Assembly (NCBI GenBank): GCA_016882305.1
Contig: VGQX01000003.1
Location: forward strand, 1 to 56,308
Origin: Cyanobacteria bacterium K_Offshore_surface_m2_239
GTDB taxonomy: Bacteria > Cyanobacteriota > Cyanobacteriia > PCC-6307 > Cyanobiaceae
Reading direction: 5' to 3'
DNA: 56,308 nt
How positions within the stretch are numbered: the stretch's first letter is position 1; every line of letters starts with the position of its first letter. The notes under the pieces were generated by a model. It searched no databases. It saw nothing but the letters and a program-made list of their open reading frames with translations, and was not told where the DNA came from. This document shows, in pieces, positions 33,322 to 43,222 of the stretch. A program made the translations under genes and the position numbers.

Positions 33322-33341
33322 GGTGTGGGCTTAAACGCCCG

Positions 33342-33401
33342 GATCAAGTGGATCAAGTGGATCAAGTGGATCAAGTGGATCAAGTGGATCAAGTGGATCA
33401 A
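33342..33401. repeat. 9-bp tandem repeat GATCAAGTG after nifJ
   Basis: Six exact copies of GATCAAGTG run from 33342 to 33395, followed by a degenerate seventh (GATCAAAAG). It sits 20 bp downstream of the nifJ stop and just before the left end of a decayed insertion element. A weak 4-bp hairpin GGGC/GCCC precedes it at 33327-33340. Confidence 0.95.
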
Positions 33402-33435: not shown

Positions 33436-34515
33436 TCCTGAAAAAGCGAGCCCCGTGGAAAAAACAGCAAAACCGGATGAACCGGATAGTTTCTAAACGA
33501 TTGTCATGCTCCAGTCAGTTGATCGCCAAGGCTCTCCTCATGCACCCTCTGGAGGCCAAGAGAGGCATCGAATAACCCCCATAAGAAAATAAAAAAGATC
33601 AAAGAATCTCCAGCAGCTTCTGGAGGTTCATGACCAGGATATTCATCGCAATTGATGAACCCTGTGTCACCAGGAGCTTCTCGAGGATCAGGGCTAATCC
33701 GTAGCGGCGTTTGCCTTGGCCGATCTTGCCTTCAACGGCGTTGCGTTGTTTTTGGTCATCGATGCCCTGCTGCCTCCAGTGACAGAGATCGAGATCTACC
33801 GCGAGCGGAAGCCCTTCGGGCTAGGGCACCAAACTCAACGTTGCATCGCGCCTTGCCACGAACAATCGACCTGATATGAGCTTGGCAGAGGCCAACAATA
33901 CGGTCAGAGATACTTCGAGTTTCACTATGATAGAGAATAGTCTGCTGGCGGACCAGCTCGCTGACCACAATTGCTGATCCGTAGCAGCAGAGCGGATCAC
34001 GCTCAGCCCGTGAAGCATGATTCGCTCGTTGCAGTCATTCACGACTGATTCCGGTAGCCGTTTCCTGAAGTACACCATCATCGATGGGTCAAACGGAGCC
34101 GAGTATTGAAAGGCCTTCAGGCCGATGAAGAACTGGAGATATGGATTCTCTCTGATATGTTCAACGAGTTCTTCATCCGTGAGCCCCATGCGCGTCTTGA
34201 TGATCAAGGCGCCCAGCGCCATGCGAAAAGGCTTTGCTGGAGCACCAAACCCGTTGCAGAACTGGGCTGCATCGTCATCTTCCAGATCATCCCATGGGAT
34301 CAACTCGGCCAGCTTGATCCAGCGGTTGTCGCCAGCGAGTTTTCCTCCAAACGGCAGAAAGAAGTCTGCAAACGAGAGCTGGTCAGGATGTTCTCGTCGG
34401 TAGATGTGGAAAACTCTGAGCGGCTCTTGGGCGTATTTGGGCCCATACGTCTACATTCTACCGCCGAAAACCGCTCAGATTCATTGTGACGCAGACGGTC
34501 TGGACTTTTTCAGGA
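33436..34515. mobile_element. Decayed IS5-like insertion sequence
   Basis: The ends carry an 11-bp perfect inverted repeat, TCCTGAAAAAG at 33436-33446 and its complement CTTTTTCAGGA at 34505-34515, with further partial matching inward. Between them lies a broken IS5-family transposase gene on the minus strand. Composition is AT-richer than the surroundings. The right end is 13 bp from the mscS stop. No clear target duplication was seen. Exact boundaries may extend a base or two. Confidence 0.8.
33599..34456 (-). pseudogene. IS5-family transposase, disrupted
   Basis: The reading begins at an ATG at 34456, followed immediately by a TAG stop, then continues in frame with TYGPKYAQEPLRVFHIYRR and the N-terminal transposase pattern (PFRMALGALIIKTRMG, IRENPYLQFFIGLKAFQY, FDPSMMVYFRKRLPESVVN). 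After about HGLSVIRSAATD the homology is lost in a frame ending at 33821. The C-terminal end reappears in another frame nearer 33790-33599 (RNAVEGKIGQGKRRYGLALI, then IAMNILVMNLQKLLE). The middle with the DDE catalytic residues is largely deleted, so it cannot be active. Confidence 0.85.
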
Positions 34516-34528
34516 GGCCCGATGCAGG

Positions 34529-36343
34529 TCACTGGCTGTGGGGTGGGGCGATCCGGAAGGGCGGCGGCACGTAATCGGCAGGCAGGTACTCGCTCGGAAT
34601 CGTGCTGGCGTTGCCGTCTCTCAGGGCAGTATAATCTGGGGACAAAATCTCGATGCCATTGTCATTGCACTTGTCTTGAATATTTTGGTGTAGTTCTGAG
34701 TAGATAAATACCATAAGGTTTGGCTTGCTGGTGAACGCGTTCAACTGGTAACTGATGGCATGATCTCCCAGTTTGGTCTGCAGTACAAAAGGCTCTGGCT
34801 CTGGCAGGATGTGGCGCGTGGCGAGAGCCGCTTCGATCAGAGTCGCGTAGACCTGGCGCCAGGGCACGTCATACCCCAGGGTGATCGATGTCTGGAGAAT
34901 GAGGCTGCGGCTCATCTCGCGCGATGAGATATTAAAGTTAATCACTTCACTGGTTAAAAGTTTTGAGTTGGGTATGGTAACAACCTGATTGGCCGGCGTC
35001 ATCACCCGAATTGCCAGAAAATTCTTTTCCACAATGTCGCCGATCACATCGCCCACACGGATGTGATCGCCAAGCCGGAAAGGACGTGTATAGCTCAGAA
35101 TGACTCCACCAACCATATTGTTGATCACCGAAGTGGAGCCGAGGGACAAAAGGAGGCTCAGAAATACCGTGATTCCCTGAAATGCAGGTGAATCAAAGCC
35201 CGGCAGGAAGGGGAACCCCAGGATGGCCGCCAGTGCGATCACCAACACCACAAGTAGATTATACGTGGGCTTGGCCCAGTCGGCATAGAAGCCAGGAATC
35301 ATCAGGTTGCCCTGTTCAATGGCAACAAAAAGAGGTTTGATGATACGCAGTAAATAATAGGCGACGACGATGATGATTCCCAGCACAAAAATGTTCGGGA
35401 GATAATTTCCAAAGGCGGCCAGCACCAGCTCTGCTGCTCCGAAGAAATAATCTGCGATGCTCTCGCCGAAGGCTCGCGTCCAGGGGAAGAGGCGCAGAAT
35501 GAAGGAGGACCAGGCGAAGAGAATGACCAACAACGCCACAAGGCGTAGGATTTTCAGCCCCTGCAGCCCGAACGAGCTGATGGCAGAGGGAGAAACGATT
35601 TCGGCACTGCGAAACCGGATGCCAGGCAAGTGCGTTGTTATGAACCGGCCGATGATTGGAAAGATGCGGCCCGACCCATGGATGATCAGGGCGCTTGCCA
35701 TCAGGGCAGCGACGCTCGCGACGGCCGCATAGAAGCCACTTCGCAACAATTGTCTGGGCTCGCGATCTTGGCGATAGCGAGACAGAGCCGTCTTGATCGT
35801 CTCCAAGGCCTGCTCGGCAACCTGCCGCTTCGGCAAACGCCTGGCCTGCGCGTCGCGTTCGTTGATTGTGAGCAGCACATCCGAGCCACTGCTCAGGTAC
35901 AGAGAGTTGTCATCCGTATTTTCGCGGATCGCCAGATCCGCCAGGTCCTTCGATTGGTCTGTGGCGAGTCTTTTCAGCCGCTGCGTGATGGTCTGAGCAC
36001 GTTCTTCGGCAGTAAAGCCAGCGATACCACGCCGAATGGAGAAAATCGTCTGGCCATCCAGGACAACTGGAACGCCATCGATCTGCTTCCCTGCTCGGGC
36101 TTCGAGCTTTCCTGCTTCAGGCGGGGGCAGGTCCTGGTCCTGCCCGAGCACTGGGGCACCAACGAGCAGCAGAACGACGGCCAGCAGCAGGGTTGCGCGT
36201 CGCCAGCTCCCGCGTCGCCATCGGCCCGGCCATGCAGGCTGGGAAGGCGCCTCCTTCACCGATCCCCAGTCGCTGCCAGGTTGAGCCTGGTCAGCGGGCT
36301 GCTGTGCCACTTGTGCTCGCCTGAGGCTTGAGGGCTCAGGCAT
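34529..36343 (-). CDS. MscS family mechanosensitive ion channel
   Basis: 604 residues. It has a basic N terminus, a hydrophobic signal segment ATLLLAVVLLLVGAPVLG (about 50-67), and a periplasmic domain of about 130 residues with TIFSIRRGIAGFTAEERA. Several membrane helices follow (about 205-400). The pore-lining TM3 region is VFLSLLLSLGSTSVINNMVG with GVILSYTRPFRLGDHIRVGD, the MscS hallmark, then the beta domain with VVTIPNSKLLTSEVINF. It is an inner-membrane channel opening under tension or osmotic downshift. The long N-terminal part places it among the larger cyanobacterial MscS-like proteins. It ends 13 bp from the IS remnant, intact. Confidence 0.93.
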   Translation of the reverse strand: MPEPSSLRRAQVAQQPADQAQPGSDWGSVKEAPSQPAWPGRWRRGSWRRATLLLAVVLLLVGAPVLGQDQDLPPPEAGKLEARAGKQIDGVPVVLDGQTIFSIRRGIAGFTAEERAQTITQRLKRLATDQSKDLADLAIRENTDDNSLYLSSGSDVLLTINERDAQARRLPKRQVAEQALETIKTALSRYRQDREPRQLLRSGFYAAVASVAALMASALIIHGSGRIFPIIGRFITTHLPGIRFRSAEIVSPSAISSFGLQGLKILRLVALLVILFAWSSFILRLFPWTRAFGESIADYFFGAAELVLAAFGNYLPNIFVLGIIIVVAYYLLRIIKPLFVAIEQGNLMIPGFYADWAKPTYNLLVVLVIALAAILGFPFLPGFDSPAFQGITVFLSLLLSLGSTSVINNMVGGVILSYTRPFRLGDHIRVGDVIGDIVEKNFLAIRVMTPANQVVTIPNSKLLTSEVINFNISSREMSRSLILQTSITLGYDVPWRQVYATLIEAALATRHILPEPEPFVLQTKLGDHAISYQLNAFTSKPNLMVFIYSELHQNIQDKCNDNGIEILSPDYTALRDGNASTIPSEYLPADYVPPPFRIAPPHSQ

Positions 36344-36797
36344 TCCTGATCAAGATCACAGGCTGCAGGTTCAGCATCAGCGTCGGCGAGGTTCAGGCCT
36401 GATGGGATGAGATTTTAGCCGGCACGAAACGCCAGGCCAGCCAGACGGAATCAACGATGACCAATCACAGTGGCTATGCGGCCCATCAGTTGCCTGAAGG
36501 ACACATCCGCTGGCACGTCTCCGCCTGCGCGCGCTTGGCGTGCCGGCTCGGGTGACAGCGGACGCGACATCGGCGGGCGCCGCCACTGGCAGATTCCAGG
36601 TCCCGCATTACAGCATTCCGGTGGAATGAAGCTGGCTTCTGTCACGGTCTGGCCGCCCTGGCTATCGGACTTGGAGTGCAGAACATCCTGCGACCCGAAC
36701 GTCGCTTTGACCGCGGGGCCTTCCTGACGCATCGGGCCTTTCGCGGCGCCCTGGCTGGTGCGGGGCCGTTACCATGCGACCACTTTGGAGATCCGCA
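36344..36797. other. Gap without a supported gene
   Basis: Short frames on both strands (for example 36451-36732 minus) have no recognisable pattern. The interval should hold the divergent promoters of the mscS gene and the outer-membrane protein gene. I see nothing more specific. Confidence 0.4.
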
Positions 36798-38026
36798 GTG
36801 AACAGCGTGCGGCGTCGGGTGCCTGACCCAAGGACAGTGAGCCCCTCACCGCCCATGGCCGCCGGACTGGCCCTGAGTGGCGTCCTCTTCCTGGTCGCTG
36901 GGGCCAGTTGCGCCTTCGCCGCGGAACCGCCACCGACGGCAGGTGACCGATCGTTGTTGACCCGCGAACTTCAGCTCGACCCGGCCGAACGCTCCCGTTT
37001 CCAGCGCGTTGCCGAGGATGGCGACAATCTCGCCGCCGCCCCCGCGAATGGTGCGGCATCCACACCGGCCGTCTCCCCCTGGGCCGGCACCCTGGAGCTC
37101 TACGGCTTCCTGCCACTGAAGGTCATCAACCGCACCACGATCCAAGGCTTCACCGCCGAGACCAACCTCAGCCTCGGCCAGCTGCTGGATGCGCTGACCA
37201 GCACGTTTTCGGTGCGGGGCAGTGTGGAGCACGGCCGCCTCGGTCTGCTCACCGACCTCAGCGACGTGAACCTGCGGAACCAGGTCGCCAGCGAACGCAG
37301 TCGTGATCGCTTCCGCATCGGTGACGGCCGGCTGCGCGCCGGCCTGGACGCCTATCGCACACTCACCAGCGAGGAGGGCAGGGATGCTCGCCGCGCCCGG
37401 CTGCGCGGCCGGGCGGCCGAGCGACTGGCGACTCTTGGCAAGGTGGAGCTCCAGCGCGGTGAACTCGCCGCAAGCGCGGTGAACTCGCCGCACGGCTGGC
37501 TGCCCGTGAACGGGGATCCGGCACCGTCACCAAGAGCTTCCGCACGGAGCTGGACACGGAGCAGGGCATCTACGACGTGGCCCTGCGGTACCGCCTCGGC
37601 GCCCGTGAGAGCGCTGTCGCCGATCCGGGCACGGTGACCGTGATCCCCTATGCCGGCATCCGCCTCCTGGATGTGGGCCTCAACATCGACTCGCTGCTCA
37701 GCGGCAGTCGCGGCCGGCAGATCGCCCGATCGTCAGCGTTCGGATCGCCGGTGGTGCAGCCGTTGCTTGGCACCCAGGCCCAGGTGTTCGTGGCGCCGCG
37801 GTTGCGCCTGTTCGCCCGCGGCGATGCCGCCGGCTTCGGCATCAGCGGCGCCGACAGCTTCTCCGCCAACGCCCAGGTGGGCCTGGGCTACGCGGTGGGC
37901 AACTCCACCCAGATCGACCTCTCCTGGCGCTATCTGCCCATGGCGGCCGACAACGGCAGGCAACAGCCCAACGCCTACGTGGTGGACCAGAACGGCATCG
38001 AGCTGGGCCTGAAGGTCTTCTTCTGA
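36798..38026 (+). pseudogene. Outer-membrane beta-barrel protein, frameshifted by a 20-bp duplication
   Basis: A GTG at 36798 with GGAG seven bases upstream starts a protein with a signal peptide (MAAGLALSGVLFLVAGASC, cleavage near AFAAEPP) and a beta-rich start LELYGFLPLKVINRTTIQGF. The frame is lost after an exact 20-bp tandem duplication at 37453-37492 and stops at 37637. Deleting one copy gives one continuous frame through LAARERGSGTVTKSF and YDVALRYRLGARES to a C terminus with alternating strands ending ELGLKVFF, the terminal Phe expected of an outer-membrane barrel; the repaired product would have 402 residues. It resembles porin-like outer-membrane proteins. It could be a recent null allele, a phase-variable state or an assembly error. 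Confidence 0.88.
37453..37492. repeat. Exact 20-bp direct duplication
   Basis: AGCGCGGTGAACTCGCCGCA occurs twice with no spacer, at 37453-37472 and 37473-37492. Since 20 is not a multiple of three, it shifts the frame of the outer-membrane protein gene. Confidence 0.97.
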
Positions 38027-40927: not shown

Positions 40928-41257
40928 TCAAAACAGAGACATCGCCCGAATCTTGGCCAGCTTGTCTGGCTCCAACCCTTCCAGCTCCTCCACTGCCAAG
41001 AGACCATCTTTAACGAAGCTGGCAAACACAAACAAAATTCCTTCCAGCCGGAAATCAAAACGCCCTTCCATGTCGTGGCGCTGGGTGCTGAGGAAATCGT
41101 GGAGCTGCCAGAGGGCCTCCACCGATCCCAACCCGGACGCATGGCCCTTCACCTTGCTGATCAACGCGCTCACGGCACGACCCTGGGCCCGTTGAAAGGC
41201 GTCCTGTGCAACCGCCTGTTCCTGGGGTGTCCAGACGATCACAGTGGATTGGGCCAT
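40928..41257 (-). CDS. frp: Fluorescence recovery protein FRP
   Basis: 109 residues from the ATG at 41257; longer frames run into the crtW gene. It accelerates the return of photoactivated OCP to its orange form and helps detach it from the phycobilisome. The active patch is conserved: ALWQLHDFLSTQRHDMEG carries the Trp, His, Asp and Arg equivalent to W50, H53, D54 and R60 of Synechocystis FRP, followed by GILFVFASFVKDGLLAVEEL, which forms the alpha-helical dimer. It lies 56 bp downstream of crtW on the same strand; that gap has an inverted repeat that could allow separate control. Confidence 0.93.
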   Translation of the reverse strand: MAQSTVIVWTPQEQAVAQDAFQRAQGRAVSALISKVKGHASGLGSVEALWQLHDFLSTQRHDMEGRFDFRLEGILFVFASFVKDGLLAVEELEGLEPDKLAKIRAMSLF

Positions 41258-41285
41258 GGTCTGCACGGGGAGAGCGTCAACGGTT

Positions 41286-41302
41286 GATAACCGCACGTTA
41301 TC
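41286..41302. promoter_or_regulatory. Inverted repeat upstream of frp
   Basis: GATAAC-CGCAC-GTTATC is a perfect 6-bp inverted repeat with a 5-bp spacer, 29-45 bp before the frp start in the crtW-frp gap. It is too short and loop-poor for a terminator and has no T run, so a regulator binding site or part of an frp promoter is more likely. Confidence 0.45.
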
Positions 41303-41313
41303 GCCCCCATAAG

Positions 41314-42039
41314 TCAAGCGCGAACAGGGGCCGGGCGCCGGGCGGCCGGCAGCTGATGCCAGGCCAGGTGGGGATAGGCGTGGTGCTCCCAGTGGTAGCC
41401 GAAGTGGTAGCAGCTCAGCAGCGACAGCCAGCAGGGCCACGCCAGGCTGCGGGGTTCATGGCACAGGGCACCCCCCGGGCCACGATGGGGGAGGTAGGTG
41501 CCCACCACAAACAGCTGCAGGGAGCTCAGCAGGGTGGGCAGGGCTCCATAGGCCAAAACGTTCAGCACCGGGCTGGCTGACACTCGGGAGCCCAGGGCGG
41601 CCAACACCAACCAGCTCAGCACCAAAGCCGTCAGTTGCCCGGGCGAGAGATAGGCCGCCATGAAACGGCCATACCAAGGCCATAGCGCCGGCTGCCCGTC
41701 CGGATGGTGGTCGGGATCGCGGCTGGTGCCGGCGTGGCGGTGGTGCAGGTGGTGATTGCGGCGGCAGCGTCCATAGGGGAGGGCCGCGTAGAGCACCAGC
41801 GCCAGTTGGCCGATGCGGCGGTTGGCCTGCGGCCGATCGGGCCAGAGGGTGCTGTGCATGGCGTCGTGGGCCACGATGAACAGACCCGTCTGCAGCAGCG
41901 TCCGCAGCACAACGGCGCCACCCACCAAGGCGAGGGGAAGCTGGTCGAGGGTGGTGGGGAGCAGGAGGGCCCAGCTCCCCAGCCAGCCCAGGACGAGTCC
42001 GGCGGCCAGCCCAAGGCCCCGCCGGGTGGAGGACGTCAA
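41314..42039 (-). CDS. crtW: Beta-carotene ketolase CrtW
   Basis: 241 residues; membrane di-iron ketolase that makes echinenone and canthaxanthin from beta-carotene. The fatty-acid-hydroxylase-type His boxes are all present: HDAMHSTLW (near 58), NHHLHHRHAGTSRDPDHH (near 95) and YHWEHHAYPHLAWHQLP (near 216), between four hydrophobic segments. The ATGA overlap with the ocp stop couples the enzyme to the protein that needs its product. The C terminus is a short basic Pro-rich tail. Confidence 0.93.
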   Translation of the reverse strand: MTSSTRRGLGLAAGLVLGWLGSWALLLPTTLDQLPLALVGGAVVLRTLLQTGLFIVAHDAMHSTLWPDRPQANRRIGQLALVLYAALPYGRCRRNHHLHHRHAGTSRDPDHHPDGQPALWPWYGRFMAAYLSPGQLTALVLSWLVLAALGSRVSASPVLNVLAYGALPTLLSSLQLFVVGTYLPHRGPGGALCHEPRSLAWPCWLSLLSCYHFGYHWEHHAYPHLAWHQLPAARRPAPVRA

Positions 42040-42989
42040 CGGGCGAACTTCAGCAGTTCAGCGGCGGAGGCCAGCAGGTCGATGGCGACGAAGTAGATCT
42101 TGCCCTCGGGATTGAGCAGGAAGCGCCAGGCGACGTTCATGCCCACGCCCGCGCCGAACCAGGGGGTCTGCACCTTGCCGGTGACCTTCACCTGATTGAA
42201 GCCACCCTCAGCGGGCTCGGAATAGCCGCGCTCGGGCAGGAGCTTGAGGTTCTGGCAGTCTTCCTTGAAGAACTTCAGGATCGCTTCGCTGCCCACAATC
42301 GGCTTCTGGAAGGGGGGCTGCAGGGCGCCGTCGGGCAGGAAGAGCTGAATCAGGGCGTCGAAGTCGTTGGCGTTCAGCAGATCCATGTAGGCGTTGATCG
42401 TGGGATTGATCACCCCTTCGATGAACACCTTTTGCCGGCTGGCTTCCGGTGTCGGCGCCGCCACAGGCTCCATCACCCGCTGACCCTCTCCCTTCGCCGG
42501 GTCGAAGCCCATGTCGACGACGAAATTGCGCAGCAGGGTGATCTGCTGTCCCTGGTCCACGCCTTTGAGGGAGGCCAGCACGGCGGAGGCGTTGGCGGAG
42601 AGTTGATAGCCCTTGGGAATCGGGGCCACCAGACCGGCGGCCATCCATTCGCCGAGCTGATACCAGAAGCCGAGCTTGATGTTCACCGACCAGGTGGCGT
42701 AGGTGCGGCCGATGGTGTTGTCCGCGCGATTGGCCAGATCACACATCACCTGGCTCTGCTCGGCGAAACTCATCGCCTTGATCTGATTGAGCACCGGCTC
42801 CGCGAACTGCATGCGGGCGGCGCCCGGAGCGGCGATCGTGATCGTCTGGCCCATCTCCAGATAGGCGAACCAGATCAGCGCCAGCTGATCTTCGGCGCTG
42901 AGGAGGCGGAAACGAGCGGTGATCGCCGGCACCACATCTGCGCTCAGCGTTTCCGGGAAGATCTGGGTGGCTTTGGAGAGGGTGAACAT
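42036..42989 (-). CDS. ocp: Orange carotenoid protein (OCP1 type)
   Basis: 317 residues from the ATG at 42989, the same length as Synechocystis OCP; a TTG at 43004 would add five residues. It is the blue-light sensor and quencher of phycobilisome energy. The N-terminal helical domain has the carotenoid-site Tyr44 in ALIWFAYLEMG and Trp110 in GFWYQLGEW, plus the salt-bridge Arg in SRQKVFIEG. The C-terminal NTF2-like domain has Tyr201 in NAYMDLLNANDF and Trp288 in GMNVAWRFLL; both ketocarotenoid hydrogen-bond donors are therefore present. It is first in ocp-crtW-frp; its promoter should be in 42990-43222. Confidence 0.97.
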   Translation of the reverse strand: MFTLSKATQIFPETLSADVVPAITARFRLLSAEDQLALIWFAYLEMGQTITIAAPGAARMQFAEPVLNQIKAMSFAEQSQVMCDLANRADNTIGRTYATWSVNIKLGFWYQLGEWMAAGLVAPIPKGYQLSANASAVLASLKGVDQGQQITLLRNFVVDMGFDPAKGEGQRVMEPVAAPTPEASRQKVFIEGVINPTINAYMDLLNANDFDALIQLFLPDGALQPPFQKPIVGSEAILKFFKEDCQNLKLLPERGYSEPAEGGFNQVKVTGKVQTPWFGAGVGMNVAWRFLLNPEGKIYFVAIDLLASAAELLKFAR

Positions 42990-43222
42990 ACGCTCGGGTC
43001 TCAATTGTGAAGATTTCCTTCAGACCTTACTCGGTTTTGTTGCGGCTGACCAGATCCGTGATCCTGCGGTTTGCGCATCAATGGTTCGGAATTCCGCCCT
43101 GGAGGGCCTCGCTGGCCCTTGGGCTTGGCGGGTGCCTCTGTCGGGAGAGCCCCGGGCAGGTCCCCTTGTCGACAGGCGGGAATCCTTGATCCATCCATTC
43201 TCCGCCCTCGGGCCTTCCCCCC

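Follow-up and report, generated by a model that had tools for sequence, protein, structure and literature searches.

An exact 20-base tandem duplication breaks the frame of a putative outer-membrane barrel gene in a draft picocyanobacterial genome

A gene that would encode a small outer-membrane beta-barrel protein is split by an exact 20-base tandem duplication in the draft genome of Cyanobacteria bacterium K_Offshore_surface_m2_239 (G000), and we lean towards reading it as a recent loss-of-function allele on its way to becoming a pseudogene, produced by that one duplication. The window, meaning the whole stretch of 56,308 nucleotides that was analysed, is contig C3 of G000, a draft of 3.52 Mb in 343 contigs with 95.6% completeness and 3.3% contamination. 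The unit, AGCGCGGTGAACTCGCCGCA, stands twice head to tail at 37453-37492 with zero mismatches; there are exactly two copies, and the number of extra matching bases at their ends is 0. Since the unit length is not a multiple of three (20 mod 3 = 2), the frame shifts. A simulated control of 2 Mb with the fifth-order composition of the genome, searched for exact tandem units of 10-400 bases, gave just two duplications, both of 10 bases, so the 20-bp pair is not a product of chance and the doubling described in the initial annotation is confirmed. The motif RGELAA, which corresponds to the doubled stretch, occurs once in the relative G033, and RGQLAA occurs once at that place in G031. The features are collected in Table 1.

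Table 1. Positions of the barrel gene, its parts, its neighbours and related loci. Positions refer to the window unless another genome or contig is named.
Feature	Position	Strand	Basis
Perfect array of the 9-base unit GGATCAAGT, 6.8 copies	33341-33401		tandem-repeat scan
Short transposase-like frame, DUF772 domain	33821-34303		domain match
MscS-type channel gene, upstream neighbour of the barrel gene	34529-36343	minus	
GGAG, ribosome-binding-site-like, 7 bases before GTG 36798	36787-36790	+	by eye
First open frame: putative signal peptide, initial strands and the larger part of the Arg-rich loop	36798-37637	+	profile, 115.5 bits; tblastn with G033
Long Arg-rich loop between two predicted strands, holding the duplication	about 37272-37537	+	family alignment, extent by eye
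First copy of the 20-bp unit	37453-37472	+	exact repeat in sequence
Second, identical copy, frame-shifting	37473-37492	+	exact repeat; stretch single in G033 and G031
Second frame: predicted C-terminal barrel and terminal Phe	37475-38026	+	profile, 272.7 bits, model positions 147-314
Photoprotection cluster: fluorescence recovery protein, fatty-acid-desaturase-type frame, orange carotenoid protein	40928-43004	minus	
Strongly decayed barrel-family relic with stops on its flanks (L053, L089)	G000 C23:27850-28005		homology search
In-frame 24-base tandem duplication in the loop of the barrel gene	L006 (G035:C84), L009 (G030:C41)		shuffle test

The GTG at 36798, at which the initial annotation placed the start, is plausible because GGAG stands 7 bases upstream, and it appears likelier than the ATG at 36774 given in the list of open reading frames. 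The first frame is off the family frame from about 37473 and ends with a stop codon at 37635-37637. The open reading frame listed for the second piece begins at GTG 37577, and hence without a signal peptide of its own, and ends in ...KVFF at 38026. The extra copy cuts the C-terminal barrel off from the putative signal peptide and the initial strands. That both frames belong to one gene, as had been proposed, is borne out by a single protein of G033 (an open frame of 394 residues) that covers both pieces: in tblastn, its residues 15-217 match 36849-37472 and its residues 209-394 match 37466-38023, the 9-residue overlap of the two matches being due to the 20-bp duplication. The phase with the highest third-position GC changes along the gene: one phase leads at 37051-37380 and another from 37501 on, with no clear phase in the loop or near the 5' end. 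As to the joined protein of 402 residues with a signal peptide that had been suggested, its length fits the coordinates by arithmetic, whereas the signal peptide is a call made by eye only.

The sequence and a structural model support the assignment of the gene product as a probable small outer-membrane beta-barrel protein. This part of the initial annotation agrees with weak Pfam barrel matches and with barrel folds that match the low-confidence model of an intact relative. Against Pfam OMP_b-brl (PF13505), the C-terminal part of the window protein scored 16.6 bits and the intact relative 22.9 bits, both below the curated cut-off of 28.7, and the window protein was not filed as a member. The structure model of the intact relative L032 (WH 5701) is of low confidence, with a mean pLDDT of 54 and a poor N-terminal half; it shows strands, and its best structural match is OpcA (2vdf; Z 11.8, rmsd 4.4, 184 aligned), with NspA, OmpT, Pla and OmpA near OpcA among the matches. 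Such small barrels (Pfam OMP_b-brl; OpcA, OmpT/Pla, NspA, OmpA) are similar in being the best matches of this low-confidence model, but identity is about 10%, and we claim no enzymatic or adhesin function; despite the OmpT/Pla matches, no protease role is proposed. A sequence search of the PDB returned weak matches only, three of seven to OmpW and one of seven to NspA, and the NCBIfam search gave no meaningful family for the barrel protein. In the aligned rows that extend to the end of the barrel part, its last residue is Phe, followed in some rows by a short tail; the last residues of L084 are not visible in this comparison.

Matches to the 149-residue C-terminal query were found in 37 of 60 genomes: G000, 34 of the 36 other genomes of the same genus, and two more distant genomes, one of which (G059) matched weakly (E 4.3e-5). 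No match to this query was obtained in G001 (83% complete) or G034 (99% complete). The comparison uses one genome per species, the single-copy form is seen in other species only, and the genus is larger than the 36-genome draw. The main copy lies in one open frame, over the matching part of the profile, in all 34 same-genus genomes, among which the copies of G031 and G005 are cut by a contig end. The homologues of G033 and G031 are 76% and 74% identical to the query, and in both the stretch is single and the frame open. The named protein relatives, five loci with 55-56% identity in the best segment, are from Synechococcus sp. WH 5701, Cyanobium sp. Cruz CV13-4-11, Microcystis elabens FACHB-917, an Aphanothece saxicola MAG and Synechococcus sp. 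CCY 0621; this set may lack records very close to the genome of the window itself. These relatives place the host among cyanobacteria of the Cyanobium/Synechococcus type. An intact copy was not found in the 95.6% complete assembly of G000, which yielded only the two pieces and one relic.

With a profile built from six sequences, members were found in 72 of 201 genomes of the taxonomic family, one of them G000. Many of the profile rows contain one internal stop, which is taken as the normal gene end given the C-terminal tail of the profile, and the copies with one stop that were inspected (G106 and G246) are whole. Four split-looking copies were inspected, and other pieces, e.g. those of G167, G181 and G131, were left aside. 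In G140, a one-contig genome, the sole copy found is interrupted by an insertion whose frame matches IS1595 transposase and zinc-ribbon domains; by eye, the 8 bases TTGGGTTA flank this insertion on both sides (L090, G140:C1:1196000-1200500). G210 has an extra copy with a frameshift, and the extra copies of G241, G235, G046, G021 and G029 are broken into several frames. The barrel family is often kept, but its copies are repeatedly lost by ordinary routes.

Around the gene, matches to the contig stretches compared from G033 (9.4 kb) and G031 (4.2 kb) were confined to the frames of the barrel gene itself, and gene order gave no support. In several other genomes of the genus (e.g. G023, G006 and G008), a different MscS-like gene, 31-32% identical to that of the window, lies about 6 kb from the barrel gene, which may be coincidence. 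The GGATCAAGT array is 420 bases from the DUF772 frame, and the two are probably what is left of a mobile element close to the barrel gene. The fatty-acid-desaturase-type frame of the photoprotection cluster is perhaps a carotenoid ketolase, judging from its neighbours. Searches for RNA families and tRNAs found none in the window.

The break appears to be either young or not real, because conserved positions are kept and dN is not accelerated in the 3' half. Compared with G033, the 3' half of the window gene has dN 0.168 and dS 0.540 (181 codons, 78% identical), and the 5' half has dN 0.328 and dS 0.761 (201 codons, 61% identical); between G033 and G031, the corresponding pairs of dN and dS are 0.035/0.162 and 0.059/0.193. 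In the relative-rate comparison, which concerns the 3' half only, the window, G033 and G031 had dN values of 0.358, 0.361 and 0.366 to the outgroup copy L005, and since the value of the window matches those of the intact relatives, its 3' half is not accelerated. At columns conserved in at least 95% of 37 intact rows, the window differs at 2 of 61; each intact row, when it is the one left out, differs at 0-4 of 53-62. Duplicate loci (L033-L035, L075 and L076) and pieces of 100 bits or less were left out of the alignment, and L083 and L084 were additionally left out of the conserved-column test. These results uphold the earlier statements that both halves are otherwise undamaged and that the event is recent. 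Such an absence of relaxed selection would also be seen in an allele of very recent origin, in a switch or in an artefact.

The loop that holds the duplication is 95-107 residues long in 4 of 38 usable rows (G033, G031, G035 and G030) and 27-46 residues long in the others. In G035 and G030, it contains an 8-residue tandem repeat (GDRLDGRL-like) whose 24-base DNA copies are 83% and 79% identical, and which was equalled by 0 and 4 of 1000 residue shuffles, respectively. The loops of G033 and G031 have internal repeats no more than expected by chance (64 and 168 of 1000 shuffles). The repeat of G035 and G030 was counted as one event because the two are close relatives in the barrel gene. With this old in-frame 24-base doubling, tandem duplication within the loop seems to have occurred at least twice, once in frame in that lineage and once out of frame in the window. 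In barrels, short turns usually alternate with long loops; this alternation and the small-barrel structural matches of L032 suggest that the Arg-rich loop would face outwards, with the strand number and the side taken from a weak model.

A census of exact tandem units of 13-300 bases was carried out over 1,219,550 bases of G000 (35%), window included. Fourteen duplications were found in these 1.22 Mb, and the unit is divisible by three in 11 of them (genes and intergenic stretches counted alike). The other units that are not multiples of three are a 22-base one at the very start of contig C2 and a 14-base one between two long frames, overlapped just by short frames of 91 and 125 residues. The 20-bp duplication of the barrel gene is the only exact duplication of at least 13 bases seen to break a gene frame in the 1.22 Mb. 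The one-contig genome G023 had three duplications in 360,000 bases. One of them has a unit of 17 bases, which is not a multiple of three; it is located ahead of a plus-strand frame of 629 residues and inside an overlapping minus-strand frame of 668 residues. These data show no accumulation of 20-base artefacts, and no set of frame-breaking duplications from which a class of switches might be suspected. A systematic assembler artefact was rejected, as no second period-20 duplication occurs in the 1.22 Mb.

A single error of assembly or consensus, in which a true 20-base overlap of two graph pieces was written twice and the gene is intact in the cell, seems to us rather unlikely while still carrying real weight. 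Assemblers that join two k = 21 graph pieces without merging them would leave a 20-base duplicate, and the exactly two copies with no extra matching end base (20 = 21 - 1), the fragmentation, completeness and contamination of the draft, and a sequence that is otherwise that of a working gene would all suit such an origin. Single reads, however, normally extend across a stretch of 40 bases; moreover, the 1.22 Mb contain no other exact period-20 tandem duplication, none other that was seen to break the frame of a gene, and no N. The 200 bases at either end of contig C3 match nowhere else in the assembly, so that the graph k is not readable from them. It is exceedingly improbable that the gene is expressed in full by translational bypassing, with the ribosome hopping between identical codons of the copies. 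By their nature, direct repeats supply matching codons for take-off and landing, and no sign of relaxed selection is seen, but the repeat is absent in the two nearest relatives and a young mutation explains the same facts.

The initial annotation had also proposed that the duplication is a reversible on/off switch, useful against phage. We consider it unlikely that gain and loss of the 20-bp copy serve as phase variation, perhaps hiding a phage receptor. Both halves are intact, the loop is probably surface-exposed, and short exact duplications do revert in other bacteria. Duplications in the capsule genes of Streptococcus pneumoniae serotypes 3, 8 and 37 were reportedly linked with phase variation by Waite et al. 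in 2001 and 2003. Duplications in the pneumococcal capsule genes are described as spontaneous and reversible in a later article that cites these papers (PMC4243769). As there, the duplication is internal to an open reading frame and would switch off a surface structure, and an exact, frame-shifting tandem duplication of this kind, which marks pneumococcal-capsule-type phase variation, is what the window contains; phase variation was reportedly observed in the pneumococcus, whereas here there is one sequence of one genome, and of a putative cyanobacterial outer-membrane barrel. In pilD of P. aeruginosa, 45% of colonies (n = 100) gave rise to motile revertants of a phage-selected 12-bp duplication; all revertants sequenced were wild type, a recoded control gave none, and reversion was attributed to slippage (PMC13170266). 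That case resembles the present one in that a gene required for a surface structure carries a short exact tandem duplication, but the duplication is in frame there and its selection by phage was shown, whereas the duplication of the barrel gene breaks the frame and comes with no phage evidence. In oipA of Helicobacter pylori, the frame of an outer-membrane protein likewise depends on repeat number, there of a CT dinucleotide repeat, whereas the barrel gene has two 20-base copies that are absent in its nearest relatives. A simple-sequence contingency locus was rejected for the window, which has two 20-base copies only, with the stretch single in G033 and G031 and no tandem repeat in their loops. 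Because any exact duplication could revert, an evolved switch cannot be read from the structure alone. The repeat is not maintained in G033 and G031, no other such duplication was seen breaking a gene in 1.22 Mb, other lineages break their copies by transposon, frameshift and decay, and no second allele was seen in the one genome; the proposed switch is thus unsupported. The same holds for a role against phage, as nothing found links the barrel protein to phage, and a tblastn search of 50,697 phage records with the C-terminal part as query returned no match. It is very doubtful that the Arg-rich loop is a duplication-prone spot which changes length in frame in some lineages and, when duplicated out of frame, turns off the entire protein in a reversible manner, acting as a small device of surface variation in picocyanobacteria.

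For a recent loss-of-function allele, the reading we prefer, a single replication slip or template switch would most likely have doubled the 20 bases, and terminal homology would not have guided the event, because there is no extra matching base at the ends. A special hairpin was tried as the cause and rejected: the unit folds to -4.7 kcal/mol (DNA parameters), equal folding was seen in 4.6% of 20,000 random 20-mers of the window and in 78 of 1209 in the gene, and since about 5% of 20-mers here fold as well, a hairpin explains little. Ribosomes that start at 36798 would leave the family frame at the second copy and stop at 37637, giving a truncated product with a wrong tail, and the C-terminal barrel, lacking a signal peptide, would stay unexported. 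The allele would be on its way to a pseudogene because the C-terminal barrel would not be made as part of an exported protein. As expected of a pseudogene, the frame is broken relative to intact homologues and no intact copy was found in G000. We infer that the sequence is correct, that no working product is made, and that the state is not a maintained switch.

Were the locus a switch, it would exemplify phase variation of the duplication type in a picocyanobacterium. If the duplication is real, it would add another recent inactivation of a surface barrel that is evidently dispensable to this family of bacteria, and would serve as a reminder that a frame break of this sort is not necessarily a switch.
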